From a virus, in IMG/VR virus record IMGVR_UViG_3300024339_000062, positions 1 through 28,723 of that record: 28,723 nt of DNA; one strand, 5' to 3'. The notes below the pieces were generated by a model. It saw only the letters and a program-made list of their open reading frames with translations, did no database searches and was not told the DNA's origin. Below, in pieces: positions 1 to 14,434 of this stretch (its first letter is position 1; the number at the start of each line of letters is the position of its first letter). Both the position numbers and the translations under genes were made by a program.

Positions 1-141
1 GATTATATTTTAGACGGAAATCATAGGTTGCAAAAAGCTTATGATTTAAGTAAAAATAATAAAAAATATGAAAATATTAAAGTTAGCGTATTAGATTTGG
101 ATGATCCAAGAATTCCTGAAGAATTTGTAAGCATGTTTTGA
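1..141 (+). CDS. ParB-like domain protein, C-terminal fragment (partial at the 5' end)
   Basis: The window opens inside a plus-strand reading frame that runs from base 1 to a TGA at 139-141. Its 46 visible residues begin DYILDGNHRLQKAYDL. The LDGNHR element is the signature of the ParB/sulfiredoxin-type fold, also found in phage ParB-like nucleases and modification proteins, where the Asn-His-Arg loop binds nucleotide. Only the end of the domain is visible, so partition protein, nuclease or other enzyme cannot be separated. The N-terminus lies outside the window, so it is unknown whether it carries the leader peptide seen on its neighbours. Genes of this kind are common in large phages. Confidence 0.6.
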   Translation, partial: DYILDGNHRLQKAYDLSKNNKKYENIKVSVLDLDDPRIPEEFVSMF

Positions 142-147
142 TTTGAC

Positions 148-179
148 TCGAGCTGGGTGTCTCTTGGGTCGCGACGTTT
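148..179 (+). repeat. 32-bp intergenic repeat, copy A
   Basis: Begins 6 bases after the stop codon of the upstream gene. It matches 915-946 at 29 of 32 positions, and all three differences are G-to-A. Similarity continues more loosely into the AT-rich stretch that follows, including a shared ATATATAGATT block. It contains the GC-rich core GAGCTGGGT and ends in CGACGTTT. No convincing conserved hairpin was found, so its role is open: 3' UTR element, recombination scar or regulatory site. Confidence 0.75.
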
Positions 180-253
180 GTTTTAGATGAACTTTATTTT
201 GTGATTTGATTGAATATATAGATTTGTATAGAAAATTAAACTGGAATTAACGT

Positions 254-313
254 ATGAATCGAAAAGATACAAAATTATTGGTTGATAGAATACGATTGGC
301 CGCACATATATAA
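254..313 (+). pseudogene. Orphan leader peptide (capsid-targeting-like), 19 codons
   Basis: A 19-codon frame encodes MNRKDTKLLVDRIRLAAHI and then stops at TAA 311-313. It resembles the N-terminus of the next gene (MKRNEYRLLVESWREVL), with the same M-x-R start and LLV-D/E core. The bases before its ATG (attaaac, then ttaacgtATG) closely match those before the gene at 2969. This looks like the surviving start of a leader-tagged gene whose payload has been deleted. No (L/I)-x-E site remains. A real mini-protein cannot be excluded. Confidence 0.5.
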
Positions 314-540
314 AATATTTTTTAATATTTGTGTGAAAGAACAAGTCTGAATGTATTGTGTATAGAGAGAAACGTGTGTTAAATAGTTTTCAGTGTGCAA
401 AACTGTTTTTCTGGATTTTGTGAAAAAACTTCGGGAGAAATTTCGGAAAGCTTTTTGATATATAAAATAAAAAATTTTCGAGCGAGAAAAATCTTGGTAA
501 ACTTTATATAATTAAACGTATTAAACAAGCGAGATTTAAA
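314..540. other. AT-rich non-coding stretch upstream of the first complete gene
   Basis: No coding frame of useful length was found on either strand here. It contains TATAAAAT-like boxes near 308-315 and 461-468, weak inverted repeats, and an attaaacgtattaaac segment just before the ATG at 541 that echoes the leaders of the 254 and 2969 frames. It may be a promoter region plus the decayed remains of the gene that began at 254. Confidence 0.4.
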
Positions 541-906
541 ATGAAAAGAAATGAATATAGGTTATTAGTTGAAAGTTGGCGTGAAGTTTTAAAAGAAGAT
601 GATTCGAAAGAAGATGATTCGAAAGAAGATGACTTATATGCGCCTATAGAAGAGCCTGACCAGTTAGATAGAGGTCTGGATTATGTAGAATCTCAAATAG
701 ATTACTTTAAAAAGTCGGATACTGAAAAGGAATTGATGTTGCAAAGATTTTGTGATATGTTTGGAGTGTCAAGAGAAGAGATTGAGGCATTTTTGGAGAA
801 TGTATTATTTGATGCAGGACATAATGTGGAAGGAAAAGAATTCGATTCAGAGCAGACACCTGATGATATGCCTTTGGACGATGATTTAGATGGTTATGAT
901 GGGTAG
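541..906 (+). CDS. Acidic protein with capsid-targeting-like leader
   Basis: Function not recognised. The 121-residue product begins MKRNEYRLLVESWREVLKED, a basic amphipathic helix ending in L17-K18-E19, a candidate prohead-protease site of the (L/I)-x-E type. Directly after it lies a DDSKE repeat made by a 15-bp DNA tandem. The middle (about residues 40-88) is predicted helical, with a compact FGVSREEIEAFL segment, and the tail is very acidic (PDDMPLDDDLDGYDG). The leader groups it with the other payload genes here. Small size and acidity would suit an internal head protein or a DNA mimic, but that is inference. The gene is followed by the second copy of the 32-bp intergenic repeat. Confidence 0.75.
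   Translation: MKRNEYRLLVESWREVLKEDDSKEDDSKEDDLYAPIEEPDQLDRGLDYVESQIDYFKKSDTEKELMLQRFCDMFGVSREEIEAFLENVLFDAGHNVEGKEFDSEQTPDDMPLDDDLDGYDG
592..632 (+). repeat. 15-bp in-frame tandem repeat
   Basis: The unit gatgattcgaaagaa occurs at 598-612 and 613-627, with partial units on each side, giving the acidic DDSKE repeat directly after the leader peptide. The copies are identical, so this is a recent slippage expansion and its copy number probably varies between relatives. Confidence 0.85.
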
Positions 907-914
907 AGTTTTGG

Positions 915-946
915 TCGAGCTGGGTATCTCTTGAGTCACGACGTTT
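915..946 (+). repeat. 32-bp intergenic repeat, copy B
   Basis: Second copy of the element at 148-179 (29 of 32 identical), beginning 8 bases after the stop codon of the 121-residue gene. As in copy A, it is followed by an AT-rich tract holding a TATATAGATT-like block before the next gene. Confidence 0.75.
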
Positions 947-995
947 ACTTCTGGTTGTTTTAATTTTGTATTTTGATATTATATATAGATTATAG

Positions 996-1003
996 TATAA
1001 AGA
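996..1003 (+). promoter_or_regulatory. TATAAAGA box, possible T4-type late promoter
   Basis: TATAAAGA lies 10 bases before the ATG at 1014. It resembles the T4 late-promoter consensus TATAAATA, but such boxes are expected by chance in DNA this AT-rich. Confidence 0.25.
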
Positions 1004-1013
1004 TAAGAGAATT

Positions 1014-2927
1014 ATGAATTACGATTTATTAAAAAGTTATATTGTATCGAGTCTTAATGAAGTAAGAGGCGATTTGGCAAGAGACGATAATTTTATTAAA
1101 GAGTTATGTTCAATTGCAGGTTTGATGTTTTACAAAAGTTATATTAGTAACATAGAAGAAACAACAGTAAATTATGAGTATAAAAGAGATCCTAATGCGG
1201 AAAAGAGTCATTTAAGACCGATTGATTGGAAAAGACATAAACATATTAAAACAATAAAAAAGTGTATTGATGAAGCTTTGGAAGAAAGTAAAGAAAAATT
1301 AACTAGTTTAAATAGTGAAAATATATTTTCTATTGATGATACAAGCAATGAACATTATAGGTTATTCAGAGACAACATACCTTATGATGAGTATCATACC
1401 ATTACAAATACAAGTAATAACAAAAGGTTTAGTATATTAATTTACGATACTGAAAGTTTGCCTTTTATAGAAAAAGGAACTAAAGGAAAAATAAAAAGAT
1501 ATGATTCAAAAAGAGAGGATCTTTTTGGAAAGCAAGATATTAAGATTCATAAATATCTTGCTTTGTCATTTATTAGTTCTGGCGGGTCAAGCAAAGAGGA
1601 GCGTAAAATGTTTGACTCGAATTCAACCGCGACTTATAGTCCACTTTATAGAAAAAGGTTTTTAAACAAACCTGAGTCTATCTTTGTAAGCAGTGTAAGA
1701 TTGTTTTTTAATAATAAACATAATAGAAAATCATTTAAAGAATATATTGACACTCTAATTGGACTAACTTATACACATAGTAAAATGTGGGATCATGAGT
1801 TGATTAAAAAATATATTTTAGACATAGTTTCAAGTAAAGAAAGTAATTCTTCCTTAGAAGCGATAAGAAATGATCTTAGTCATGAAATAGTTCATATGAA
1901 ACAATACTTAAATAGTTTTAAAATAACAAAATATGATAAAAGATTTTTAGGTACGCATAGAAGATATGGTTTACCAGAAGTTCCTTTTAAAAAGAAAATG
2001 TATAAAGATGAAAGTGAAGGAAATTACTGGAGCGTTGGTTCAAGAAACCCACATAGAAATTCTGTAAGACATGAGATGCAACCTATTGAATTTTATGCAA
2101 GACTTTCAGACGAGTGGGAAAATTTGAAAAAAAGAATTAACCCGAAATTTAAATATAATTTAATTTTTAATATTAATAAACAAAAAATTGTATCATTAGA
2201 GGAAAGTGTTAATAAAGAAATAAATGAAATAATATTAGATTATAGAGAAGATTCATATTGGCTTAAGCATTTATTTAGCAGTGCAAGAAAACATTCTAAA
2301 AAAGCAAAAACTTATTATAAGAAAGCAATTCAAGAATTATACAAGTTATCAATTGAACATGTAAATAAAGTTGAAAAAGAATTAATTGATCTATACAGTA
2401 AAAACAAAGAAAAAGTTTTGTCAGATATTGAAAATAAAAAATATCATCATAGAGCTTTTTATATAACAAAAAATTACTTAGAAAAAATAAACAAAGTAGA
2501 ACATTATTCTGAGGTAGAGGATTCAGATAGAATTTATTACCATAATATTAATAAAGATTCTGAAAATAAAAATAAAAAAGCAAAAGATTCTTATGAATAT
2601 TCAAGTATAATAGAGTGGACAAAGGAAGATGTTGAAAATGCTGCTAATAGTAAAGAACATAATTTATCTAAAATTATAGATGATGATGATTGCAGTGTCT
2701 GGTGGTTAGATGAAATGGAAGGAATTATTCCTGAGATTATATACATGTTGGACGAAGATTATTTGGCAGAGCATGCAAAAGAATTATTAATTGTAATTAG
2801 AGAATTAATTATAAAAAAAGATTTGATTACACACAATGAAGATAAAAATAAACTAAAAATTAAAGATTATATTAAAGACGAATATCCTGATGTTTTCCAG
2901 ATATTGGCTTTGCCGACAGCTAATTAA
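1014..2927 (+). CDS. Putative zinc metallopeptidase-like protein with capsid-targeting-like leader
   Basis: The 637-residue product begins MNYDLLKSYIVSSLNEVRGD, with a predicted prohead-protease cut after L14-N15-E16. A HEIVH motif (H290, E291, H294) followed by a second Glu about 65 residues later in QPIEFYARL (E359) matches the gluzincin plan: two zinc-binding His, catalytic Glu, then a downstream Glu ligand. The rest is Lys-rich and mostly helical, with long charged segments and no clear second domain. Its position among other leader-tagged genes suggests a capsid-packaged enzyme that could act on host proteins or on the cell wall after ejection. The target is unknown. The peptidase call rests on the motif pair alone. 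Confidence 0.6.
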   Translation: MNYDLLKSYIVSSLNEVRGDLARDDNFIKELCSIAGLMFYKSYISNIEETTVNYEYKRDPNAEKSHLRPIDWKRHKHIKTIKKCIDEALEESKEKLTSLNSENIFSIDDTSNEHYRLFRDNIPYDEYHTITNTSNNKRFSILIYDTESLPFIEKGTKGKIKRYDSKREDLFGKQDIKIHKYLALSFISSGGSSKEERKMFDSNSTATYSPLYRKRFLNKPESIFVSSVRLFFNNKHNRKSFKEYIDTLIGLTYTHSKMWDHELIKKYILDIVSSKESNSSLEAIRNDLSHEIVHMKQYLNSFKITKYDKRFLGTHRRYGLPEVPFKKKMYKDESEGNYWSVGSRNPHRNSVRHEMQPIEFYARLSDEWENLKKRINPKFKYNLIFNINKQKIVSLEESVNKEINEIILDYREDSYWLKHLFSSARKHSKKAKTYYKKAIQELYKLSIEHVNKVEKELIDLYSKNKEKVLSDIENKKYHHRAFYITKNYLEKINKVEHYSEVEDSDRIYYHNINKDSENKNKKAKDSYEYSSIIEWTKEDVENAANSKEHNLSKIIDDDDCSVWWLDEMEGIIPEIIYMLDEDYLAEHAKELLIVIRELIIKKDLITHNEDKNKLKIKDYIKDEYPDVFQILALPTAN

Positions 2928-2968
2928 AGATATTTAGTTATAATATAGAATTAAACGAGAGTTAACGT

Positions 2969-3955
2969 ATGTTATTAGAAGTGTATATAAAAGATTTCTT
3001 GTTAGAAATTATGAATTCTAGTGATGGGTCTGAAATTGGCGTTATTGGTGAGAAGTTAGATAAAGTGAGTAAGGATTTAAGAGCTCATTTAGAAAGTGAT
3101 GATTATAGTGGGGGTATAGAAGATTTGCCTCATTATATTTATGGGGAGTTAGAGAATGTTGCATATAGTAATAAGCCGAGGATTGAGCTTTTAGATTCGG
3201 GTGCTTTTAGGAGTGGGTTTTCTATAAGCGGGAAGCTTTGGGTTTTAAAGATAGCAATGAACCCGATGGGCGCTGAAACTAATGGTAAAGAGATAAAAAT
3301 GTGTTTGGCTAAGGAACATAGTGGTGCAGCTTCAGATATATTTATTAAAGTTTTTGGGTATGATAGAGTCAATGAAAAGCCTTATTGGTATATTTGTGAA
3401 AAAGTTAGACCTTTGAGTGACATTGAAGATATAACAATATTGAAGAACGTTTTTCCTACGTTTTGGAACGTGTTAGATCATGGTGACAAAAATAGAGCAA
3501 AGAGTTCAGCAAAGAGTTTTAAAGAGTTTGTAGTTAGTACTATAATGATGTGTGTTTATATGACAAGGCTTCCTGAAATGAGGAGAAAGACATATCGTAA
3601 AGATGATGAAGAAAAGTATAGAGAGATGTTGATGTTTAACAGGAATTCTCCAGAAAGTCAAGGTAAAGAAGTTGCTAGTGACAAATTAAAAAAAGTTACT
3701 AGTAATTTTGATAATTCTGGTAAGTTAGATAGAATATTGCCAAAAATAAGTAATGTGATGTTTCATGATGCTGCTAGTAATTTTGCAAATGTTAAAGATA
3801 TAGAAGATGTAATGTTTTATGAAGATTTTAAAAGATTATCAGCTGCTTTTGGTTATATTAGTACAAGTGATATGCATGACGATAACTTTGGAGTAAAGAT
3901 TGTTGACAATCCTAGTCCAAGTGATATTGTTATATTAGATTTTGATATTATATAG
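2969..3955 (+). CDS. Protein kinase-like fold protein with capsid-targeting-like leader
   Basis: The 328-residue product starts MLLEVYIKDFLLEIMN, with candidate cut site L11-L12-E13. The body carries kinase landmarks in order. A Gly/Ser-rich loop (GAFRSGFS) is followed by WVLKIA with Lys94 in the ATP-binding position. A catalytic loop near the end reads SDMHDDNFGV, aligning with the D-x-H-x-x-N of aminoglycoside-phosphotransferase and HipA-like kinases (D301, H303, N306). DFD at 324-326 replaces the usual DFG, and the protein ends two residues later, so no activation-segment lobe exists. It may be an ATP-binding phosphotransferase or a pseudokinase. The leader implies packaging with the DNA. 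Its last codons are part of the 42-bp repeat repeated at 4580-4621. Confidence 0.6.
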   Translation: MLLEVYIKDFLLEIMNSSDGSEIGVIGEKLDKVSKDLRAHLESDDYSGGIEDLPHYIYGELENVAYSNKPRIELLDSGAFRSGFSISGKLWVLKIAMNPMGAETNGKEIKMCLAKEHSGAASDIFIKVFGYDRVNEKPYWYICEKVRPLSDIEDITILKNVFPTFWNVLDHGDKNRAKSSAKSFKEFVVSTIMMCVYMTRLPEMRRKTYRKDDEEKYREMLMFNRNSPESQGKEVASDKLKKVTSNFDNSGKLDRILPKISNVMFHDAASNFANVKDIEDVMFYEDFKRLSAAFGYISTSDMHDDNFGVKIVDNPSPSDIVILDFDII

Positions 3956-3970
3956 ATTTAGATTTTAAAG
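3929..3970 (+). repeat. 42-bp direct repeat, copy 1 (3' end of the kinase-like gene)
   Basis: Identical to 4580-4621. Copy 1 covers the final codons and stop of the kinase-like gene and continues to the ribosome-binding region of the Nudix gene. It overlaps the 64-bp repeat by 5 bases, forming a chimeric junction. Confidence 0.9.
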
Positions 3971-4029
3971 GAATTGTATAAATGAAAATAACAGAAAATG
4001 ATCTTAGGATCCTGATTAGAGAAGTATTA
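3966..4029 (+). repeat. 64-bp direct repeat, copy 1 (leader-peptide module)
   Basis: Identical to 4727-4790. It contains the ribosome-binding site (aaaggaattgtataaATG) and exactly the first 16 codons, MKITENDLRILIREVL. The identity stops at the codon 16/17 boundary, where the Nudix-specific sequence begins. Confidence 0.95.
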
Positions 4030-4554
4030 GCGTTTAGTGTAAAGGGTAAAGTGATGAGAAAAAATCCTACATTTTGGGGAACCGCAGGTGCAGGTATTCT
4101 TTTTGTGTGTGAAGAAGATAATACCGTTTTCCTAATGCACAGATCGAGAGATGTGGAACAGCCAGGCACATGGGGTATTCCTGGAGGTTCTGTAAAAGGT
4201 GAGGGTTTTTATGACTCTGGAATGAGTGCTGAAAGACCCACCGACGCTACTTTTTGGAAAGGTGCAAAAAAAGAAACCAAAGAAGAATGTGGAGACTTAC
4301 CCAACATGTCAAAGTCGGACATCATTGGATATATCGACTTTGTTTCGGGCAGCTTCATTTATCGAAACTTTATTGTGAGTTTGTCTCTTGAAGAAAAATT
4401 AGAATGGACATCTACAATTGAACTCAACTGGGAGAATGACACTTATGAGTGGATTTCTTTTGACGATGTAGATTCGTATAATCTGCACTTTGGTGTAGTC
4501 TATGTTTTAGATAACGATACCAATTTCCAAGATGCTTCTCAGTTAGATATCTGA
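3982..4554 (+). CDS. Nudix hydrolase fused to a capsid-targeting-like leader
   Basis: The 190-residue protein has the leader MKITENDLRILIREVL (candidate cut after I12-R13-E14), then a Nudix fold. The box begins with G68-x5-E74 (GIPGGSVKGEG) and ends in KKETKEECGD (about 97-105), matching RExxEExG with Arg replaced by Lys. About 15 extra residues (GFYDSGMSAERPTDATFW) separate the two halves, where the standard box has 7. Nudix enzymes hydrolyse nucleoside diphosphate derivatives; the substrate here is unknown. The body uses more C-ending codons than its neighbours (for example cccaccgacgct), suggesting foreign origin. It sits between direct repeats showing that leader and body were joined by a recent duplication. 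The start is set by AAAGGA upstream. Confidence 0.8.
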   Translation: MKITENDLRILIREVLAFSVKGKVMRKNPTFWGTAGAGILFVCEEDNTVFLMHRSRDVEQPGTWGIPGGSVKGEGFYDSGMSAERPTDATFWKGAKKETKEECGDLPNMSKSDIIGYIDFVSGSFIYRNFIVSLSLEEKLEWTSTIELNWENDTYEWISFDDVDSYNLHFGVVYVLDNDTNFQDASQLDI

Positions 4555-4579
4555 GTCCACAAGTTCACTGAGTTGATAT

Positions 4580-4621
4580 GTTATATTAGATTTTGATATT
4601 ATATAGATTTAGATTTTAAAG
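4580..4621 (+). repeat. 42-bp direct repeat, copy 2 (stranded kinase-gene 3' end)
   Basis: Exact copy of 3929-3970, now stranded 3' of the Nudix gene and coding for nothing. It is flanked on both sides by the 9-mer TGAGTTGAT (4569-4577 and 4622-4630), which may mark the recombination joint. Confidence 0.9.
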
Positions 4622-4710
4622 TGAGTTGATTTATGATATTAACTATCATATTACATGTTTTTGTATAATTGAGTACACTTTAATCAAATTTAATATAAAG
4701 TATATGTATA

Positions 4711-4718
4711 TATAAATT
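4711..4718 (+). promoter_or_regulatory. TATAAATT box upstream of the 107-residue gene
   Basis: Lies 24 bases before the ATG at 4743, close to the T4 late consensus TATAAATA. The spacing resembles that of the TATAAATA box before the helicase gene. A chance match is possible. Confidence 0.3.
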
Positions 4719-4726
4719 AATATTTA

Positions 4727-4790
4727 TAAAGGAATTGTATAAATGAAAATAACAGAAAATGATCTTAGGATCCTGATTAGAGAAGTATTA
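4727..4790 (+). repeat. 64-bp direct repeat, copy 2 (leader-peptide module)
   Basis: Exact copy of 3966-4029: ribosome-binding site plus 16 leader codons. In this gene the leader continues NEV and supplies an LNE site, so this copy is probably the donor. Confidence 0.95.
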
Positions 4791-5066
4791 AATGAAGTTG
4801 GTTCTGATTCTATTCACGTGTATAACAAGACTTCAAAGAGAATAAAAATAGGAGACATTTTTGAAGGTGATCCTATTAAAATTGGTGGTCAAGATATTCA
4901 AGATAATCAATACTATAAAGTTATAGGTGAAGATGTTCATGAAGAAATTAAAGGGTCACGTTCAACTACATTTAATGTTATTTTAGGTGTAATAGACGAT
5001 GAAAATAATATGTCTGGTGAAGTGTATTACTTCAAGCCAGAAAGTATCTCTAAAATAGAAGATTAA
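4743..5066 (+). CDS. Small unknown protein with capsid-targeting-like leader
   Basis: Function not recognised. The 107-residue protein begins MKITENDLRILIREVLNEV. Its first 16 residues are identical to the Nudix leader, and it has candidate cut sites at I12-R13-E14 and L16-N17-E18. The body looks beta-rich and is interrupted by short acidic turns (GDIFEGDPIKIGGQD, GVIDDENN), consistent with a small globular domain. The frame stays open after its TAA for another 34 codons before a TGA at 5169-5171, so the gene may have been longer. It is preceded by a good ribosome-binding site and a TATAAATT box. Confidence 0.75.
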   Translation: MKITENDLRILIREVLNEVGSDSIHVYNKTSKRIKIGDIFEGDPIKIGGQDIQDNQYYKVIGEDVHEEIKGSRSTTFNVILGVIDDENNMSGEVYYFKPESISKIED

Positions 5067-5171
5067 ATTAATAACCTTAATAACTATATTGGAATATATT
5101 CTGAAGTAGTGAACTATATCGAAGATTTAGAAAAAGATTTAGGTTATAATATTTTGAGCATAGCTCTGTGA
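5067..5171 (+). other. In-frame open extension after the 107-residue gene
   Basis: Directly after the TAA the same frame continues for 34 sense codons (INNLNNYIGIYSEVVNYIED and on) to TGA. The predicted peptide is amphipathic helical. It may be the former C-terminus cut off by a nonsense change, a readthrough extension, or chance. Confidence 0.3.
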
Positions 5172-5175
5172 TGTT

Positions 5176-5319
5176 TTAAACATTATTTAGTTTATTTATA
5201 GTTTTATGTATTCTTATCATTTCATCTTCATCGAAACAATTTCTATTGATAGCTTCTTGGAGACATCTAATAAGAATGTTTATACAAGTTAATTGTGTTT
5301 GTGTTATTGAGTAATGCAT
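5176..5319 (-). CDS. Possible 47-residue small protein
   Basis: A minus-strand frame with ATG at 5319 and TAA at 5176-5178 encodes a 47-residue protein. It begins MHYSITQTQLTCINILIRCL and continues as a Lys/Asn-rich helix with acidic patches (CFDEDEMIRIHK). It fills most of the gap between two plus-strand genes, and its composition looks protein-like. No strong ribosome-binding site precedes the ATG and no family was recognised. Confidence 0.35.
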   Translation of the reverse strand: MHYSITQTQLTCINILIRCLQEAINRNCFDEDEMIRIHKTINKLNNV

Positions 5320-5354
5320 GATATTTATCATATAAGAGTTTTAGTGAGTTTACA

Positions 5355-5600
5355 ATGTTTAAGAAAATAATGTTATGTGTTGTATTTTTTGTTGCATCTG
5401 CAGTTTCTTGTAGTAGAACGTATAAGAAGATTGATGAGTCAAAGTCTGAGTGTGAGCAGATTTTGAATGTAGTAACTGATTGTATGGGATTACATCGTGG
5501 TGCATTTGATCATATTGCTAATTGTGGTGATGCGTCAATAGAAAGAATAAAACAGTTAAGAAATTGTGATGATATATTAAATTATTTAGAAAATGATTAA
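5355..5600 (+). CDS. Small predicted Cys-rich lipoprotein
   Basis: The 81-residue product has a bacterial lipoprotein signal: basic start MFKK, hydrophobic stretch IMLCVVFFVASAV, and a lipobox-like AVSC with Cys19 as the likely lipidated residue. The mature part is helical, with Cys in CEQILNVVTDC, IANC and RNC spaced as paired helices might be. It lacks the leader of its neighbours and would be exported and anchored in the envelope of a Gram-negative host. Known phage lipoproteins include outer-membrane spanins and superinfection-exclusion proteins. Nothing here distinguishes these, and it is distant from the holin-like genes. The lipobox is imperfect, with Ala rather than Leu at -3. Confidence 0.6.
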   Translation: MFKKIMLCVVFFVASAVSCSRTYKKIDESKSECEQILNVVTDCMGLHRGAFDHIANCGDASIERIKQLRNCDDILNYLEND

Positions 5601-5631
5601 TATATTAGCTTAGAATTCAAGGATTAAATAA

Positions 5632-7494: not shown

Positions 7495-7496
7495 CT

Positions 7497-7703
7497 TTAC
7501 CACTCATATACAAGGCTTGTCTTGATAATCAAGTCATTTGTAAGAATATCTTCTGGAGGTTTTGTGTCGTACATAAAGTTTACAGAATTTTCTATAAAAA
7601 GGTTTAAATTAGTTATCAAAAGTGTTCTTGCGTTTTCTTCTAAGTTAATTCTATAATCTTTTGGATTGTTAAACAAGGGTTGATAATAAAGAGTAAACAG
7701 CAT
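7497..7703 (-). CDS. Hypothetical 68-residue protein
   Basis: Not recognised. The frame lies 11 bases downstream of the lysozyme stop, with a weak AGAAAGA ribosome-binding sequence, and ends 2 bases from the convergent metallopeptidase gene, so it fits tightly as the second gene of a lysozyme operon. The product is short and without membrane segments. It starts MLFTLYYQPLFNNPKDYRIN, with a central amphipathic helix. Confidence 0.45.
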   Translation of the reverse strand: MLFTLYYQPLFNNPKDYRINLEENARTLLITNLNLFIENSVNFMYDTKPPEDILTNDLIIKTSLVYEW

Positions 7704-7714
7704 TAAATTCTTTC

Positions 7715-9094
7715 TTAAGAAAAAAGGTTTTTGTAAATATTTTTTAGTGAGTTATTTTCATTAATACTAGCTTCTAATTCTTCAATTACCCCAAGAAGTA
7801 ATTTATAATTTTCTGTAGCTCTATCTCTATTTTGTCTATAATATGTGGGTGCACCCTTTGGAGAAATTTCTTTTGCTGCAAGTTTTAAGTGTGCTATTGT
7901 TTTTTTAATGTCAGGTTTTTCTTTTATGATTTCTTCACTATAATTTACTAAATGCTTGTTAAAGTCTGTATATACTTTTTGTAGAAAAAATAAGCCAACA
8001 TTATAATTCATGTCAATAATAACAATTATAACATCTAAGTGCATTTTTTCAAAAGCGTTTTTAAAATCACTTTTTGCTTTATTATATGCTTCTTGCACGT
8101 CAAGTTCAAAACATTTTATAGCTTCCTCAAGCGTTAATACTCCTCTGTCATATGCTGCATCAATTCTTGATTTTAAGTGACTTATTTTTTTATCAAGACG
8201 CTTTCTTTCTTTTTTAGGGAAACGATACCTATTAGTTTTTCCGACTTTACTGTTTTTTCTTTCTTCTAATTCATCAATTCTTTCTTCTATACTGGCGACG
8301 TATTTTTTTATTTCTTTTTTAACATTATCTATATATTTTTTGTCCTTTTTCAGCTCTTTAATTTTTGCATCAGAATAACCTAATTTTTTATAAATAATAT
8401 CTTTCCAGTTACCGTCTTTCTTGAGTTTTCCAGCGTTTCCTTTTGTCATGAACTGTGTGCCAAATCCTATTGATACACCACTTCTGTCTTGATAAGGAAA
8501 AGGCTTAAAGTTTTCAAACTCCTTTATTCTTTCAATTGAAATTTCTTTAATTCTGTCGTTTCTTTTGTTTTTAATTGGTTTTGTCAGAGTTTTTTTGGTT
8601 TTTTCTTGTGAATTAATATTTTTGACTGTTGTTTGAGGAGCCACTTTTTGACTTGATTTTGCTTTACTTTGATTAATCATTTGTTCTACAGTCATATTAT
8701 TTTGATGTGCCATCAAGTCTAAAGCTTCTTTTTCTTGTTGCGGCAAATTAGCGTTAAAAAACATACTTGCTGCTAATGAGCTTACAGTTAAACCGCCTAA
8801 TGCTATATTTAGTATTTTTTTCATTTTAGATTTTAACTTAGCTGCATATTCTAAATCTTCTGGTTCAACTTTGTCCTCTATTGTATCAGTGTGAATGACT
8901 TCAGTATCATCATCTTTGTAGGCTGGGTAATCAATAACTGTATCATTATTATCTAAAGAAGCTAAATTGAATTGTGTGTGTGCTCCTCCTTGAGTTTGAT
9001 TAAGACGAGTCTCTTTTAACTTTTGCTTATTAATTTCATCATAAAAATTTTTTATTAAATAGTGATTTTTTTTATTTTCCGTTATAATAATCAT
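7715..9094 (-). CDS. Membrane-anchored GH24-type lysozyme with possible capsid-targeting leader
   Basis: A peptidoglycan-cleaving muramidase of the T4-lysozyme (GH24) type. The 459-residue protein begins MIIITENKKNHYLIKNFYDE with a possible cut at L26-K27-E28. A single membrane helix lies at about 94-113 (ILNIALGGLTVSSLAASMFF), followed by a Lys-rich linker. The catalytic region reads EFENFKPFPYQDRSGVSIGFG: E194 and D203 keep the 9-residue spacing of T4 Glu11/Asp20, while Thr26 appears as Ser208, one residue closer. A Lys/Glu-rich helical insertion of about 60-70 residues precedes the C-terminal helix DVIIVIIDMNYNVG. It is much longer than the T4 enzyme (164 residues). It may be a signal-anchored endolysin or a virion muramidase aiding DNA entry. 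AAGGGA precedes the start. Confidence 0.8.
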   Translation of the reverse strand: MIIITENKKNHYLIKNFYDEINKQKLKETRLNQTQGGAHTQFNLASLDNNDTVIDYPAYKDDDTEVIHTDTIEDKVEPEDLEYAAKLKSKMKKILNIALGGLTVSSLAASMFFNANLPQQEKEALDLMAHQNNMTVEQMINQSKAKSSQKVAPQTTVKNINSQEKTKKTLTKPIKNKRNDRIKEISIERIKEFENFKPFPYQDRSGVSIGFGTQFMTKGNAGKLKKDGNWKDIIYKKLGYSDAKIKELKKDKKYIDNVKKEIKKYVASIEERIDELEERKNSKVGKTNRYRFPKKERKRLDKKISHLKSRIDAAYDRGVLTLEEAIKCFELDVQEAYNKAKSDFKNAFEKMHLDVIIVIIDMNYNVGLFFLQKVYTDFNKHLVNYSEEIIKEKPDIKKTIAHLKLAAKEISPKGAPTYYRQNRDRATENYKLLLGVIEELEASINENNSLKNIYKNLFS

Positions 9095-9128
9095 AAAATT
9101 CCCTTATCAGTAAAATATAATTATAATT

Positions 9129-9434
9129 ATGCGAGACAAAATGAACAAAGACAGTTTGTATATGATACAGTCAGATGTAACAGGAATGATAAAAATAGGT
9201 AGATCTAAAAATCCACAAAAAAGATTAAAACAGCTTCAAACTGGTAATCCAAATAAGCTTAAAATAATTGCTGAGTTTAAAGGAGAAGGATGGAAAGAAA
9301 AAATTGTCCATGAAAGACTTAGAAAATATAGATTAGAAGGCGAATGGTTTAGCTATGACTGTGTGGGTAGTATACCTGATACTTTGTATGAACAAATATC
9401 TTTTGGATCTTTTGATGGCTGGTGGGATAATTAG
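9129..9434 (+). CDS. T5orf172/MUG113-type GIY-YIG domain protein
   Basis: The 101-residue protein is essentially one domain. It reads SLYMIQSDVTGMIKIGRSKN, then PQKRLKQLQTGNPNKLKI, and later VHERLRKYRLEGEWF. This order is characteristic of the T5orf172/MUG113 branch of the GIY-YIG nuclease superfamily: degenerate YMI and IKIGRS strands, an R-x-x-x-L-Q-T-G-N helix, an H-x-x-[LF] helix and a final EGEWF. Standalone copies are frequent in phages and may nick DNA or be selfish endonucleases. The annotated ATG has no clear ribosome-binding site; the in-frame ATG at 9141 is an alternative. It is divergent from the lysozyme gene with only 34 bases between. Confidence 0.8.
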   Translation: MRDKMNKDSLYMIQSDVTGMIKIGRSKNPQKRLKQLQTGNPNKLKIIAEFKGEGWKEKIVHERLRKYRLEGEWFSYDCVGSIPDTLYEQISFGSFDGWWDN

Positions 9435-9464
9435 TATAGTTATTTAAATAAAAAAGGAAAAATA

Positions 9465-11186
9465 ATGTCAAACTTACTTAGACTTTACGTTAAAAACTTG
9501 CTAAGCGAAGCAGGTCACGAAAGAGCAAGAGAGTCATCGTCACTATCAGGCTTGTCAGAAGATATTCATGAGCCTATTATAGTTACAATTCTTGACGACA
9601 AAGCAGCTGATTTTAATGAAGATTTAACAAAGTTTCCAGTAGAAAAAAGCTTTATTTGCTTTGCAGAGTCTGGTTTTAAAACTAATGTTATAAAAAGTCT
9701 TGAAAAAAAATGGGATGAACGATATGAATCTGATAGGAATGATCCATTATCGATTTTTTCTGCTTATGAAGACTCTAAAACCATTGAAAATGTTGATATA
9801 GGGTTGCAAGAACCAATTGAAGTAGTATATGTTATGTTTACAGATATTACTGGTGTAGATGTTAAAGCTTTAGGAAATCAAGACGACAAAGGCAACCCAA
9901 CAAAAAGAAAGAGTCAGTTTGATGAATATCAAAAAACAGATGATTTTGATGATTTTGATGATAAAAAAACGTATAGAAGTCAAAAAAGAAAGTTAGGAAA
10001 ACAATTTAGATTTAGTAGGGAAAACTATGGCTCTTCCTACATGCATACAAGTGCAATAGTAAAGCAGCAATTGAGCTTAGCACTTAGAGACTTAGGTCTT
10101 GTAAGAGTTGTAAAAGACATACCTGCCATCTTTAACGAAGAATATATTGAAAAAAGCTTTACAAAAATATTTAATGATAATGGTTGGAGAAGAACACTCG
10201 CACAAATGGGATATACACCAGGAAGATCAGAAAGTGAAACAAAAAAGCTTTCAAAAGTCTATGGTATAGATAAAGATTCTGTTGCTTCTTCTTTTGACGA
10301 GGTTTTGATGGGTGCTTCATCACTTAATTCAAAAAATGATCTCGTAGATTCTATTGAAAATGGATTTGCTGCAAGTGCTGAAAAATTTATACCAAGTATA
10401 TTTGAACTTTTTAAAATGTTTAGAGAAAATCCTGACGGTGTTGTTTGGTCTTTCGGCGCTTGGTTAAAAAGCTGGGAGAAAACTGGTCAATCGCAAGGAT
10501 CAGAAGATATTTATAAAATACTTAATGATGCTGTAGTTACTTCTTCAACAGAAGAAAAATATAATCATAAGGGTAAAGAAAAAACACGAATAATATACAA
10601 CACTGGTGAGTTAGACGACTCTCTACTGGAAATAGCTAAAGTTAAGTTATTGAAGATGTTTGCTGATCGATATATTAGTTGGCTTAGTAAACAGTCAGAC
10701 TATGTTAGAAGAAAAGACGCTGAGCTTAAGCTTAACCCAAATGAAAAACAAAACTATTCACGAGATAGAATTAAAATGGCTAAGTCGTCTTTTGTTGATT
10801 TCGAAGACAATAATAATACTATTGAAACAGATAGTGCAGGATTTCCAACAAACTTAACAGACCAGCAAAAAGCTTTATTTTTCTCTACAATTGATCAAGA
10901 CTTTAGATTTAAAATAGCAACTTTACCTCATATAAAAAAGCAAGATAATCCAATGGGTTATGCTCCAACTCCTGAAGGTTTAACGCCAGCTGAAGCTAGG
11001 GTTTGGCGATCAACTCAAGATGCAATTACTTCAAAGTATAATACTGATCTCGCAAATAAAGCTCGTAAAAAAGAAGGACTTCCAGCTCTTCCTCAAAGTT
11101 CTGTTGTTACAAGAGTTACTAATCCTATGGATAGAGCAAGAGCAGCAAGAGCAGCTAGTAAAGCAAGAAGTAAAAAAAATAAATGA
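9465..11186 (+). CDS. Unknown large protein with capsid-targeting-like leader
   Basis: Function not recognised. The 573-residue product begins MSNLLRLYVKNLLSEAGHER. L13-S14-E15 followed by Ala-Gly is the best match in the window to a T4 gp21-type cleavage site. It is charged and mostly helical, with a short acidic tandem (DDFDDFDDKK, about 163-172) and an Ala/Arg/Lys-rich C-terminus (RARAARAASKARSKKNK) that could bind DNA. No membrane segment or familiar catalytic motif was seen. The start has a good AAAGGA ribosome-binding site. It overlaps the next gene by 4 bases (ATGA), so the two are probably translated together. The basic tail and leader suit a DNA-associated internal head protein. Confidence 0.75.
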   Translation: MSNLLRLYVKNLLSEAGHERARESSSLSGLSEDIHEPIIVTILDDKAADFNEDLTKFPVEKSFICFAESGFKTNVIKSLEKKWDERYESDRNDPLSIFSAYEDSKTIENVDIGLQEPIEVVYVMFTDITGVDVKALGNQDDKGNPTKRKSQFDEYQKTDDFDDFDDKKTYRSQKRKLGKQFRFSRENYGSSYMHTSAIVKQQLSLALRDLGLVRVVKDIPAIFNEEYIEKSFTKIFNDNGWRRTLAQMGYTPGRSESETKKLSKVYGIDKDSVASSFDEVLMGASSLNSKNDLVDSIENGFAASAEKFIPSIFELFKMFRENPDGVVWSFGAWLKSWEKTGQSQGSEDIYKILNDAVVTSSTEEKYNHKGKEKTRIIYNTGELDDSLLEIAKVKLLKMFADRYISWLSKQSDYVRRKDAELKLNPNEKQNYSRDRIKMAKSSFVDFEDNNNTIETDSAGFPTNLTDQQKALFFSTIDQDFRFKIATLPHIKKQDNPMGYAPTPEGLTPAEARVWRSTQDAITSKYNTDLANKARKKEGLPALPQSSVVTRVTNPMDRARAARAASKARSKKNK

Positions 11187-12085
11187 AAAAAACAAAAACA
11201 ACAAAATTTTTGTTAAAGTCTTGGAACAAATATCTTTTAAACGAATCTATTAAATTAGATCAACATTACGAAGACAGAGAAGACTATGAAGATTCAGGTT
11301 TTCAAATAGAAGACGAAGAAAACTTTTTAGATATTGCTGCTTCTGATCGGAAAGAGACTGGTTTGCATGGCGGATATGACGAAGAAAAAACAAAAAGACT
11401 CTCATCTTTTGATTCTTCAGGAATAAATGTAGGAATTAAAAGTATTATAGATAGATTAGAAAGTAAAGTTATAAATTCTCGTACAAAAACAGGAGATGAA
11501 AACATAAAAGGTAGGATATACCTTTATGAAAATGAATTTGAAGGTTTTATTAAGTATAATTTTGACGATTTGTTGCCTGAAGGTCGAGTTAATAGTACAT
11601 TAGAATTTGAATCTACACCTAAAGATTGGGTAATGGGTTATGGCTTAGGTGCTTATAGACACATGCTTACACACAAGTCAACAAAAGGTGTAAGCGCATT
11701 AATTTTTGAAATTATGTTGGAGTTTGTATCTATAATAAGAGGTAAAAGTTTAGTTTCTGATCGTTACTCTATAACACCACAAGCACAAAAAAAATGGCAT
11801 GTATATGCAAATAGAAATGATGTAGATTTAATACAATTAGATATGATGCCTGATGAGGCTGAGTCTTATAATTTAGAACAACTTACTCCTGAAGCTCCTG
11901 AAGATGATATTTCTCAGAAATTTAGTTTAGATTACTTTGGAGAAGATTGGACAAACTCAGTTTTTTCTAAAGCTTTCAAGAAAACAAACATGGATGTAAT
12001 AAAATATTTAATTGATTCACCGTATATTGAATTAGTATTTTCTATAAACAATGAATCAGACTTGACTTCAAAAATAAGCTTATAG
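11183..12085 (+). CDS. Phage protein with acyltransferase-like conserved block and capsid-targeting-like leader
   Basis: The 300-residue protein starts MKKTKTTKFLLKSWNKYLLN, with site L19-N20-E21 before Ser22. An acidic linker follows, then a block at about 148-220 that resembles a domain I recall from many phage proteins. That block has a G-x-G loop (MGYGLGAY), a helix (SALIFEIMLEFVS), G-K-S-L-V-S-D-R, then ITPQAQKKW and YANRNDVDLIQLD. The order S-D-R, S/T-x-x-A-x-x-x-W, R-x-D-V, Q-L-D is distinctive and looks like a divergent GNAT-type acyltransferase fold. That assignment is recalled similarity, not a search. Start overlaps the preceding stop (ATGA). Its 3' end overlaps the convergent minus-strand gene by 6 bases. 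Confidence 0.55.
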   Translation: MKKTKTTKFLLKSWNKYLLNESIKLDQHYEDREDYEDSGFQIEDEENFLDIAASDRKETGLHGGYDEEKTKRLSSFDSSGINVGIKSIIDRLESKVINSRTKTGDENIKGRIYLYENEFEGFIKYNFDDLLPEGRVNSTLEFESTPKDWVMGYGLGAYRHMLTHKSTKGVSALIFEIMLEFVSIIRGKSLVSDRYSITPQAQKKWHVYANRNDVDLIQLDMMPDEAESYNLEQLTPEAPEDDISQKFSLDYFGEDWTNSVFSKAFKKTNMDVIKYLIDSPYIELVFSINNESDLTSKISL

Positions 12086-12568
12086 CTTTTTATTTCTATC
12101 AGTTTCAGGAAGCCATTCTTCTACGTGTCTATTAAGAACAACATCGTCTTCACTTTTAGACTTAATAATATTGTCACCTTTGAACATTGAAAGTTTGTTT
12201 ATAACTGCGTTTTGCAATTCAAATATTTGCTCTCTTAATAATTGCATTTGAATTTGTGAATCACGTAAACGTGCTATTAGTGCAGCTCGATCCGAATTAG
12301 CGATTGCAAGTTTGTCTTTAAGTTCTTCGACTTCACTGGGGTCACGTCCACTTGCTATGGCAAGCATTGAAGAAATACTTCCTGTAAGCATACCGATAAT
12401 TCCAATAAGAATATCACGGTTTTCTTCAACTATTTTTGTTGTTGACAAAAAATAAATAAGTTCACAGATAAGTGCCATGAAAACAACAGAAGCCCACCAC
12501 CCTCTTTTTGCTTTGTCAGTCTTTGTGAACTGTTTTTTGGTTATTTCTTCTTTATTTTGATCAGACAT
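12080..12568 (-). CDS. Two-helix membrane protein with C-terminal coiled coil
   Basis: The 162-residue protein has a basic N-terminus, membrane helices at about 24-42 (WWASVVFMALICELIYFLS) and 53-73 (ILIGIIGMLTGSISSMLAIAS), then a long coiled coil at about 78-125 and a charged tail. Both ends are predicted cytoplasmic. A strong ribosome-binding site (CAGGAG) precedes the ATG. It is the last gene of a minus-strand operon, 47 bases after the membrane cyclase. Size and layout could suit a holin, while the operon position also allows a role as partner or effector of the cyclase. No cyclic-nucleotide-binding motif was seen, so the effector idea is only contextual. Confidence 0.7.
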   Translation of the reverse strand: MSDQNKEEITKKQFTKTDKAKRGWWASVVFMALICELIYFLSTTKIVEENRDILIGIIGMLTGSISSMLAIASGRDPSEVEELKDKLAIANSDRAALIARLRDSQIQMQLLREQIFELQNAVINKLSMFKGDNIIKSKSEDDVVLNRHVEEWLPETDRNKKL

Positions 12569-12615
12569 ATATTGACTCCTGCTTTAATCTGTTTTAATCT
12601 TTTCTTAATTTTAAT

Positions 12616-13488
12616 TTAACTATTAATTATTTTTTGAAAAGCATAAACAGCATACAAAACAATCGTATTTATCCACTCAAAAGGCTCGAGCCACCAATAG
12701 TCAATGGCCCAAAAGCGCTTATTTTTGCTAGAAGACAATAAAGGCCAAAACAAGAAAAGAAAGTATAACAATTCGATTAATACCAGTCTATAAATAAAAT
12801 AAAAGAATATTTCTTTCCAACGCTTGTGACGAAGTCTTATTTTTACTTTTCTTTTCCCACCAATTCTTTTGGCTTTTTCTCCGTCTTTTGGCGGCTGTAA
12901 TTGTATTTCATGCAAACCCAGCGCGTATATTTGTGCTGGTTCTTTTACTCCTTTAAATCTATACAACCCTACAAATACTGAAAGTGCTCTTTTTGGAATA
13001 TATCTATTTTTGTTTTTCCTTGCTTTAAAAACTTTAAAAGCATTGTGGCTTAATAGTATCTGTTCTTCTCCACAAATAGACATTGTTCTTGCAGCAATAT
13101 TTTTCCCTATACCTTCTAAATTTATTCTTTTTCCACCACCTCTTACGAGTTTATCATCTGATTTTACAAGTATCATTTTATCCCAGTGAATGCCGATTCT
13201 ACTTCTAAAAGGAAATTTTTTTGTTCGTAAGAACTTTTTATATTCAAAAGCGAAAGCAATAGAATCCTGTATTGATCCAAAATACATTAGGTGACCATCA
13301 CTATTGTCAACCCACTGGCCGTTAAATCTGGTAATAAGATTCATAACAAGTTTATCGTGAATAGCAAACCACTGCGCTGCAGCTTTAGCGCCATTTCTTT
13401 GAACAAATTTAGTGCTACCAATAATATCAGTTAAAACGATTGCGACATAAGATTCTGTCATATGCTCTGGTAGTTTTGTCGTATTCAT
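12616..13488 (-). CDS. Membrane-anchored class III nucleotidyl cyclase
   Basis: A class III cyclase domain fills residues 14-200. It begins VAIVLTDIIGSTKF (first metal Asp D21), then NSDGHLMYF (second metal Asp D64), and later EGIGKNIAARTMSICGEEQI, where N130 and R134 match the transition-state Asn/Arg. The purine-reading Lys usual just before the second Asp is replaced by Asp61, and the usual base-reading position before GKNIAAR is also changed. Product identity (cAMP, cGMP or a pyrimidine cyclic nucleotide) is therefore open. Two C-terminal membrane helices follow (about 227-250 and 268-286), unlike soluble PycC enzymes. It begins 5 bases after the Cys-rich gene and precedes a membrane coiled-coil gene. 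The catalytic set looks intact. Confidence 0.85.
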   Translation of the reverse strand: MNTTKLPEHMTESYVAIVLTDIIGSTKFVQRNGAKAAAQWFAIHDKLVMNLITRFNGQWVDNSDGHLMYFGSIQDSIAFAFEYKKFLRTKKFPFRSRIGIHWDKMILVKSDDKLVRGGGKRINLEGIGKNIAARTMSICGEEQILLSHNAFKVFKARKNKNRYIPKRALSVFVGLYRFKGVKEPAQIYALGLHEIQLQPPKDGEKAKRIGGKRKVKIRLRHKRWKEIFFYFIYRLVLIELLYFLFLFWPLLSSSKNKRFWAIDYWWLEPFEWINTIVLYAVYAFQKIINS

Positions 13489-13493
13489 TTTAA

Positions 13494-13703
13494 TTACTCT
13501 TCTTTCAATTTACATTTACAATCGTTAATTAACTCTATACATTTATAGCAAAAGCAACTTACGTCTGGCCATTTGCAATTTTTAGCTTTAATATTGCATG
13601 GACAATAGTACTCGTCATTACAAAGACAATTATGGTTTTCTTTGCTACACAAAGAACAAATTTCCTGATTGGATAAATCTATATTTTTAAAATCAAATTC
13701 CAT
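13494..13703 (-). CDS. Cys-rich mini-protein
   Basis: Family not recognised. Of 69 residues, 12 are Cys, arranged mainly as CxxC and CxC pairs (ICSLC, CLC, YYCPC, CFCYKC, CKC). This density implies metal binding (zinc or iron-sulfur) if cytoplasmic, since no signal peptide is present. A good AAAGGAC ribosome-binding site lies before the ATG. It leads the operon containing the membrane cyclase, with 5 bases between the genes, so co-expression is very likely. It could sense or regulate the cyclase, but that is inference from position. Confidence 0.7.
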   Translation of the reverse strand: MEFDFKNIDLSNQEICSLCSKENHNCLCNDEYYCPCNIKAKNCKWPDVSCFCYKCIELINDCKCKLKEE

Positions 13704-13749
13704 TTTATTAGTCCTTTTAGTCCTTACATAGATAATTATTTTTAAAATA

Positions 13750-13757
13750 TATAAACA
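13750..13757 (+). promoter_or_regulatory. TATAAACA box in the divergent intergenic region
   Basis: Lies 17 bases before the ATG of the holin-like gene, in the 71-base gap between divergent operons. It resembles the T4 late-promoter consensus. The match is weak given the AT-rich background. Confidence 0.25.
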
Positions 13758-13774
13758 TAAGAAAGTATTAAAAA

Positions 13775-14032
13775 ATGTTGGACAAGACGCCTCTCAAAAG
13801 CAAAAAGTTTATAGCATACCTTATTGCAGACCTCGGTTGGAAATTTATTATACTGTATTCTTTGATGCACTTAAAGTCTAAGATTGAAGCAGGAGAGTTA
13901 ACATTTCTTTTAACAGTAGTTATTACAAGTGGTATAATACAAATTGGTTATATCCTAGGACAAGCAGCATTAGACAAATATATAAATGCTGCAGTTGAAA
14001 TATTTGATAAAGACGAAAAAGAGGACAAGTAA
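13775..14032 (+). CDS. Holin-like small membrane protein
   Basis: The 85-residue protein has two membrane segments, about 11-33 (KFIAYLIADLGWKFIILYSL) and 42-63 (LTFLLTVVITSGIIQIGYIL), a GQAALDKYI segment after the second, and an acidic/basic tail (DKDEKEDK). Size, hairpin topology and charged C-terminus match class II-type holins, which form the lysis hole at the end of infection. It is not next to the lysozyme gene, about 4.7 kb away. Another small membrane role is possible. Its stop abuts the ATG of the next gene. Confidence 0.5.
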   Translation: MLDKTPLKSKKFIAYLIADLGWKFIILYSLMHLKSKIEAGELTFLLTVVITSGIIQIGYILGQAALDKYINAAVEIFDKDEKEDK

Positions 14033-14434
14033 ATGAATTTAAAAAAAATTTTATATGAAAACTATGGGATTGTAATTAAAAAGTCAGAGGAAATGTTTTG
14101 GAATCACATCGTTAAAAATAAGTCGCATCAAAAACTCGCGGAATCTTTGGAAGAATTTTCTTCAACTACAGAAATTCAATATTTCAATCATAGACATTTT
14201 AATAACATAGCAAACTGTCTCGTTAAAGAAGAAATAAGTCATAGAGATCAAGAGTCAGGATATAAACCGGGCGATTCACAAAATATTACTGCAAGTGATA
14301 TACTTTATCATGAATATGATGTCAATGAAGAAGGTTTAGACACAAATGAATTTTCAGAAGAAAGTGATCCAGACGCACAGCATGTTTTTAGTGTAAATCA
14401 TCTTTCAAAGAAGATAGGCTCTCATAAAAAATAA
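14033..14434 (+). CDS. Unknown 133-residue protein, possibly leader-tagged
   Basis: Not recognised. The ATG directly follows the TAA of the holin-like gene, indicating translational coupling. It begins MNLKKILYENYGIVIKKSEE. L7-Y8-E9 could be a short prohead-protease site, but the leader is shorter than on the clearer members. The remainder is hydrophilic, with an acidic C-terminal half (YDVNEEGLDTNEFSEESD) and no known motif. Confidence 0.65.
   Translation: MNLKKILYENYGIVIKKSEEMFWNHIVKNKSHQKLAESLEEFSSTTEIQYFNHRHFNNIANCLVKEEISHRDQESGYKPGDSQNITASDILYHEYDVNEEGLDTNEFSEESDPDAQHVFSVNHLSKKIGSHKK

Follow-up and report, generated by a model that had tools for sequence, protein, structure and literature searches.

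The principle that an N-terminal segment can direct a protein into a phage capsid is already known. In the portions of the literature covered here, the internal proteins of phage T4 are targeted to the prohead core by tags of 10–19 residues that gp21 cuts off; for IPIII, ten residues are enough for targeting, and the mature internal proteins are variable (PMC9026906, PMC3012670). In P1, the anti-restriction protein DarB enters the head by means of an N-terminal segment no longer than 30 residues, and no consensus among Dar N-termini was found by BLAST (PMC9024508). In phiKZ and SPN3US, many head proteins are cut after glutamate by gp21-related proteases, the phiKZ motif being S/A-x-E (PMC9026906). 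This report deals with an array of genes at one end of IMGVR_UViG_3300024339_000062, an entire IMG/VR virus record of 28,723 bases (hereafter the window), whose otherwise unrelated products begin with short leader tags. These tags are, in our judgement, probably capsid-targeting propeptides of a T4-superfamily myovirus, cut by its S77 prohead protease, with the cargo behind them injected into the host.

Like the T4 proteins IPI–III and Alt, the array combines a short N-terminal segment bearing an L/I-x-E site with unrelated and variable bodies, and phages of the window's kind have an S77-type protease and a Gp23-type capsid protein; by analogy, injection is likely. Unlike in T4, the leaders of the window's kin lack detectable sequence similarity to the T4 tags, number 4 to 32 genes per record (in ten large records), fall into several classes within one phage, and are accompanied by leader DNA reuse, slot swapping, and Nudix and HExxH bodies. 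An N-terminal packaging segment would be shared with the P1 Dar proteins as described in the source cited above, the difference being that the tag forms a recognisable family here. Cutting after glutamate by a gp21-related protease, predicted here, is what would be shared with the inner-body and ejection proteins of phiKZ and SPN3US, whereas the leaders differ from phiKZ by their L/I-x-E site (S/A-x-E itself was uncounted) and by the T4-like Gp23 capsid protein of the relatives.

We infer docking, cutting, packaging and ejection as follows. The tags, of 13–38 N-terminal residues, would be capsid-targeting propeptides that dock on the protein core of the prohead, probably in the manner of the similar N-termini found on two products of genes close to that of the protease. 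Cutting after L/I-x-E by the S77 protease would free the cargo inside the head, and at the next infection the cargo would enter the host together with the DNA. The tag is a portable module, as leader DNA reuse and slot swapping show: entire leader genes are exchanged between strains at fixed slots, and the tag by itself is copied onto new bodies or replaced on old ones.

The first-pass annotation had named eight genes with such tags; all are present, and the N-termini quoted for them are confirmed. Its L/I-x-E ending applies to seven, 3982 having only IRE-14. Tags were scored with three hidden Markov models (HMMs) made from 23 short seeds picked by eye from relatives, with the window left out: class 1 (M[KR]ITExxLRxIIRxVIxE), class 2 (MNRKEYKLLVExWxxYLxE) and class 3 (LLENYIKEVLLxE). 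The genes are listed below, each site being given with its last residue; G and L labels are our own handles.

541–906, plus strand: class 2 leader gene (MKRNEYRLLVESWREVLKE before DD; LKE-19), 121 aa, 19.1 bits, leader at nt 541–597; acidic body of no family, with a single homolog, in G038, at 33% identity.
1014–2927, plus strand: probable class 3 leader gene (MNYDLLKSYIVSSLNE before V; LNE-16), 637 aa, 5.7 bits, leader at nt 1014–1061; HEIVH motif; no homolog in 12 relative records.
2969–3955, plus strand: class 3 leader gene (MLLEVYIKDFLLE before I; LLE-13), 328 aa, 12.4 bits, leader at nt 2969–3007; kinase-like by motif.
3982–4554, plus strand: class 1 leader gene (MKITENDLRILIREVL...), 190 aa, 16.6 bits; Nudix body (PF00293, E=3.6e-9).
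4743–5066, plus strand: class 1 leader gene (MKITENDLRILIREVLNE before V; LNE-18), 107 aa, 17.4 bits, leader at nt 4743–4796.
5632–7494, plus strand: probable class 2 leader gene (MKRSEYRE...LLRE before D, LRE-27, or LNE before G, LNE-38), 620 aa; HELGH, metallopeptidase-like; homology to 10384 of the sister contig G097.
9465–11186, plus strand: class 3 leader gene (MSNLLRLYVKNLLSE before A; LSE-15), 573 aa, 8.5 bits, leader at nt 9465–9509; no body assignment.
11183–12085, plus strand: class 2 leader gene (MKKTKTTKFLLKSWNKYLLNE before S; LNE-21), 300 aa, 10.4 bits, leader at nt 11183–11245; body homologs in G042, G040 and G023, and in another slot of G097 (8427–8867).

Six of the 38 open reading frames (ORFs) of the window score at least 8 bits (541, 4743, 3982, 2969, 11183 and 9465), compared with 0/245 internal segments of the window and 4/3,880 decoys taken from relatives (2/1062 internal, 1/1180 C-terminal, 1/1638 shuffled). 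An AT-rich genome could mimic such tags through chance N-termini rich in Lys, Leu and Glu, and 25 of 1,638 shuffled N-termini do match at 4 bits or more; at the higher threshold, however, the controls refute this explanation for the six strong cases. Together with the failure of a scrambled pattern to find any match and the reuse of leader DNA, both described below, this leaves chance a negligible probability.

Judged by sequence, 1014 and 5632 are probable leader genes. The former is borderline, at least 5 bits being reached by 31 of the 3,880 decoys. The latter scores −0.2 bits, and its residues 1–112 align with the sister-contig protein, with a class 2 start by eye (E=2e-4); the homology to G097 10384 covers residues 1–112 and 347–614 at about 25% identity. 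For two weaker candidates put forward earlier, 7715 on the minus strand (0.6 bits) and 14033 (−1.5 bits), a leader is not supported by the HMMs; 7715 is kept in relatives, which at the place of 14033 have other ORFs. The effector labels once attached to the array have mostly stayed at motif level: Nudix for 3982 is borne out by Pfam, which has no other match among the eight leader genes, the two metallopeptidases correspond to HExxH motifs in 1014 and 5632, and the kinase-like motifs of 2969 were seen by eye only, with a poor structure model (pLDDT 42). Searches of solved structures with 2969, 7715 and 5632 gave no convincing match, and family and profile searches of window and leader proteins gave no evidence for an acyltransferase-like product.

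The same signal emerges from N-termini taken without regard to the models. A survey of all ORF N-termini, suggested by the first-pass annotation and run on relatives (genes of at least 80 aa), revealed peaks in the position of [LI]xE, one at residue 18 in four relatives (647 genes; 32 observed, 8.4 expected) and one at residue 14 in two further sets (45 in 513 genes and 31 in 473, with 5.8 expected in each). Motif discovery by expectation maximization on the relatives' N-termini also returned a helix-like motif, which was not relied on because controls gave motifs as well.

The family of these tags is large. At least 120 IMG/VR stretches match a degenerate DNA pattern for MKI[ST]xxxL[KR]x[LI]I[KR]E and near forms, and 180 ORFs were read from them (duplicates and cut ones included); the same codons in scrambled order had no IMG/VR match. 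Among cellular genomes, the pattern occurs in 14 stretches, 13 of them on metagenome-assembled contigs, several with many copies; the only isolate match is a chance ORF of six residues, and an S77 protease was found in three of the eight genomes concerned, the isolate included. Two such contigs, NHDW01000006.1 (305,838 bases) and PBIO01000025.1 (101,404 bases), carry many leader genes, were binned as Methylococcaceae and Halobacteriovorax, respectively, and come from assemblies that both contain S77; they are probably large phages binned with bacteria. A 22-residue leader consensus searched against GenBank phages returned one uncultured record (E=2).

The leader search pattern stops at residue 14, and the cut-site count at residues 18–26 lies beyond it. 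In this interval [LI]xE ends in 85 of 154 distinct leader proteins of at least 60 aa (shuffled, 25.7; standard deviation 4.3), compared with 5–8% in other intervals of equal width, and [LIVMF]xD shows no enrichment (24/154, below the shuffled mean of 30.2). A small residue at P1′ (S, A, N or G) is favoured in two phage groups (23/48 vs. 48/201 and 25/53 vs. 30/135). The phages' own head proteins carry the same type of site: the Gp23 N-termini of ten phages read L-[RK]-E followed by S, A or N in 10/10 listed, and the S77 proteases of G038, G040, G042 and G049 start with MGA[QP]RLITE, where T4 gp21 starts with MNEPQLLIE. Locating the protease and the capsid site had been proposed as a check on the idea of packaged effectors; run on relatives, it yielded an encoded gp21-type protease and a Gp23 with L-[RK]-E of the same kind.

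The relatives also place the window. A record of 41,594 bases, nearly the same in sequence (2 mismatches over 21 kb), extends it by about 13 kb of fibre-like genes, and the PhoH gene of the window leads to 33 IMG/VR loci. A simple script that takes the longest ORF was used to call the genes of metagenome records, which may be fragments or mis-binned. All seven PhoH-relative contigs of at least 95 kb, G022 and G008 included, encode both the S77 prohead protease and Gp23, and because of this the window is, on sequence grounds, taken as part of a T4-superfamily myovirus with its head genes off the contig. Thirteen PhoH-relative records were searched together: five have S77 and Gp23, and the other eight, of 35–61 kb, have neither.

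Leader genes and the protease occur together. The protease search covered contigs of at least 20 kb, and the random set consisted of 67 stretches found with an arbitrary 15-mer, 17 of them on contigs of this size. Among the matches listed, S77 is present in 26 of 36 leader contigs of at least 60 kb and in 18 of 29 of 20–60 kb (44/65 together), and Gp23 in 23 of the 36 larger ones; in the random contigs S77 was found in 3/17, two of them with the same score, and in 0/12 of 20–60 kb (Fisher p=3e-4 overall and in the 20–60 kb class). Such an association could stem from shared phage ancestry, and short basic-hydrophobic segments can bind membranes or proteins, so that the helix might instead sort proteins elsewhere in the infected cell (membrane, host polymerase or replication site), the x-E site and the protease link being side effects of lineage. 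This is improbable in our estimation, since similar segments stand on proteins encoded near the protease, the leader site is of the same type as the phages' own capsid site, and an N-terminal Sec-like segment was found by a simple hydropathy test in 0/115 leader genes vs. 47/1,349 others.

Sec-like segments behind the predicted cut site are a separate matter. In G097 (L381/L382), a hydrophobic Sec-like segment follows soon after the site in 191 and 9666 by the same kind of test and in 10384 by eye (positions on the reverse complement), as it does by eye in window gene 5632. These segments sit in or near one slot, as if removal of the tag would uncover a signal for secretion. The idea that leader proteins in general have a Sec segment behind the cut site was considered and rejected (6/115 leader genes vs. 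46/1,349 others, p=0.29).

Shortly downstream of the protease, two conserved proteins have leader-like starts in some of the phages, most clearly MAKITKRMLKGIVKECLVEILSEG (L144) and KITPSTIRRLVKEERARLNE (G042), the latter about ten residues in. The leader profile scores above 99.9% of shuffled versions in 11/19 sequences of the first protein and 4/11 of the second; low-scoring ones have a similar shape by eye. The likeness of leaders to these proteins of the presumed prohead-core cluster is suggestive, the remaining sequences scoring low; the first protein had no match among GenBank phages. The same likeness, together with the position of several leader genes near head genes (G023 132445–133592, G049 64803), would suit a different role, in which leader proteins are structural parts of the core or scaffold that the protease destroys in the prohead, with no cargo for the host. 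Their bodies speak against it, because structural core parts should be conserved. A pool of 254 leader proteins with bodies of at least 55 aa, drawn from the listed IMG/VR leader stretches, ten large leader or relative records and the window, falls into 193 sequence clusters, 161 of them singletons (duplicates not removed), and the bodies vary between strains. Pfam was run on 88 leader proteins, 82 chosen by length (nearly all at least 180 aa and within one piece) plus six from the window, and matched 13 families with one member each, among them Nudix, Fe/Mn superoxide dismutase C-domain, HAD RNA repair, AAA, pentapeptide repeat and ParB. We regard the structural role as unlikely, if the least so of the alternatives. 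PHROGs matched 35 families, mostly of unknown function among the 25 listed, and PADLOC gave one weak match to leader proteins. The superoxide dismutase-like C-terminal region belongs to a G040 gene (L289:590–1303, minus strand; 10.7 bits) with a long leader-like N-terminus, to which that of G038 161558 is similar.

The portability of the tag is visible in the DNA itself, through direct repeats of the window:

3963–4029, plus strand: leader DNA module, copy 1 (upstream bases plus 48 coding nt); repeat D3, 99% over 67 nt to copy 2.
4724–4790, plus strand: leader DNA module, copy 2; repeat D3.
3928–3970, plus strand: end of gene 2969 and following bases; repeat D1, copy 1 (43 nt), recurring at 4579–4621.
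4579–4621, plus strand: repeat D1, copy 2 (43 nt), beyond the Nudix gene, which the direct repeats flank.
148–239, plus strand: 92-nt intergenic repeat D2, copy 1, 73% to copy 2.
915–1006, plus strand: 92-nt intergenic repeat D2, copy 2, upstream of leader gene 1014.

Genes 3982 and 4743 share an exact run of 16 upstream and 48 coding nt, after which they diverge into unrelated bodies; at protein level the 3982 leader is the same as that of 4743, with VLAFS in place of VLNEV. Elsewhere, neighbouring G040 genes have exactly 43 nt in common, from the ATG to one base past the last Glu codon, two G012 genes share 38 coding nt, and two G049 genes share 37 upstream nt. The second D1 copy is possibly the scar of a Nudix gene insertion, and D2-like sequence precedes array genes in the sister contig as well (blastn). 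Exchange on an old body is seen in the 2969 cargo family, which has a class 3 leader in the window and class 2 leaders in its G038 and G040 members; all three sequences keep L11 and E13. Identity reaching upstream, by 16 nt in the window and 37 nt in G049, would also be natural if the common 5′ end were a gene-expression module (ribosome site, early codons, translational control) whose protein sequence is incidental, and TATATA is indeed commoner upstream of leader genes (28/60 vs. 18/170 others). The same count, made with a shared late promoter in mind, gave 3/60 vs. 3/170 for the T4-like TATAAATA. Yet the 43 nt of G040 begin at the ATG and end just past a Glu codon, the motif is kept as protein across phages with degenerate codons, x-E and not x-D is enriched, and the similar segment of one core-cluster protein begins about ten residues inside it; a purely regulatory module is accordingly given little credence.

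That the locus is swappable, as first supposed, is confirmed by relatives that lack its leader genes or have divergent or different genes in their place. Between 9129 and 12080, G038, L238, L240 and L254 have an empty slot, and G040 and G042 have different leader genes; after 5355, the slot is occupied in the window, G042 and G097 and empty in G038, G040 and G049. Across five genomes (genes of at least 100 aa), a homolog in another genome was found for 21/47 leader genes vs. 421/523 other genes (p=3e-7); in this count, relatives' leaders were those of at least 6 bits, with one clear false positive, and the window's eight were assigned by hand. For G097, leader genes were recognised by eye. Gene 2969 is conserved there (96.6% DNA identity over 1,047 nt), as is the 5355 region (95%), but a different leader gene with a body resembling 11183 of another slot stands in place of 3982 and 4743, and in the next slot are one more leader gene and a gene distantly related to 5632.

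An isolate with the same signs makes the idea testable now. The capsid protein of Flavobacterium phage immuto (vB_FspM_immuto) is related, and a prohead core protease is annotated in its genome. A scan of 225 ORFs, called from 150 of its 160 kb, gave four leader-like genes, immuto26A_191 (27.2 bits), _177 (11.4), _157 (9.3) and _176 (8.3), of which immuto26A_157 is by eye more like a core protein.

Several observations weigh against capsid-targeting propeptides. The tags of T4 itself do not match the leader models (IPI −0.7, IPII −0.7, IPIII −2.6 and Alt −2.0 bits), so the likeness to T4 is one of function: the leader system would work by analogy with that of T4. In a scan of 241 T4 ORFs (150 of 169 kb), two ORFs without a capsid-targeting sequence (CTS) score 9.2 (residues 34–40) and 8.9 bits. 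No head genes were seen by ORF inspection on the window contig or its 41.6-kb extension, and S77 is absent from 10 of the 36 large leader contigs, which fragments could explain. The terminal L-x-E is missing from 3982, the small P1′ residue is not favoured in a third phage group (9/26 vs. 34/90), and the profile score does not reach the 99.9% shuffled level in 8/19 sequences of the first core-cluster protein and 7/11 of the second. Genes without leaders occupy the slot 9129–12080 in L224 and G097. Virion proteomics for immuto or other leader-bearing phages was not found in the portions of the literature searched. The packaged-effector locus proposed in the first-pass annotation nonetheless gains from the protease, the capsid site, their co-occurrence with leaders and the swapping of genes, and loses 7715 and 14033 as leader proteins.

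A wider proposal stands, for us, at about even chances: that a large, mostly uncultured set of T4-superfamily phages delivers a strain-specific mix of proteins through a core-like portable tag recombined onto changing cargo, and that some cargo of one slot may have a Sec-like segment, made N-terminal only by cutting, that redirects it to the host envelope. The literature searched, seen in part, covers CTS of T4, P1 and SPN3US, nothing on this leader family was found in it, and literal leader strings occurred only in unrelated papers; within these bounds the family, its abundance and its visible recombination appear to be new. If the proposal is true, a simple N-terminal pattern would list proteins injected before any phage gene is expressed, and some two hundred unrelated gene families (193 clusters) would become candidates for early-takeover or counter-defence proteins. 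The phage would renew its injected set by moves of short tags and by cassette swaps in fixed slots, and in laboratory phages the tags could be used to load foreign proteins into heads.

The remaining genes of the locus form a backbone around the slots:

5355–5600, plus strand: backbone gene without leader, N-terminus like that of a secreted protein by eye, flanking cassette slots; 35–55% identity in G038, G040, G042 and G049, and 94% in G097.
7497–7703, minus strand: backbone gene, 68 aa in the window; matching ORFs of 153–255 aa in six relatives.
7715–9094, minus strand: backbone gene, GH24-like muramidase by motif, no leader (HMM 0.6 bits; family alignment); internal hydrophobic segment at residue 97.
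9129–9434, plus strand: backbone gene, T5orf172/MUG113 (GIY-YIG-like; PF13455, PF10544), no leader; 78–86% in group relatives.
12080–12568, minus strand: backbone gene, no leader; 68–83% among 14 matches listed.
12616–13488, minus strand: backbone gene, no leader; 60–66% among 14 matches listed.
14033–14434, plus strand: the earlier weak case, leader not supported (HMM −1.5 bits); one homolog (L226), its place holding other ORFs in relatives.

Among the matches listed, 9129, 12080, 12616, 13775 and 14807 stay put in relatives, mostly at 60–88% identity, and lower values were obtained for 5355 (35–55%), 13494 (36–45%) and 7715 (31–37%). The counterpart of 7497–7703 in the sister contig is in two parts and seems to have been broken by cargo insertion, because the parts lie one on each side of a cargo gene. 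The window also has a leaderless Nudix gene at 16459–16917, its second, with homologs in many relatives; it is a natural comparison for 3982–4554. Finally, GPQG collagen-like repeats are found in a fibre-like protein of 2,342 aa that runs off the window (window 25256–28723; L124 4073–11101).

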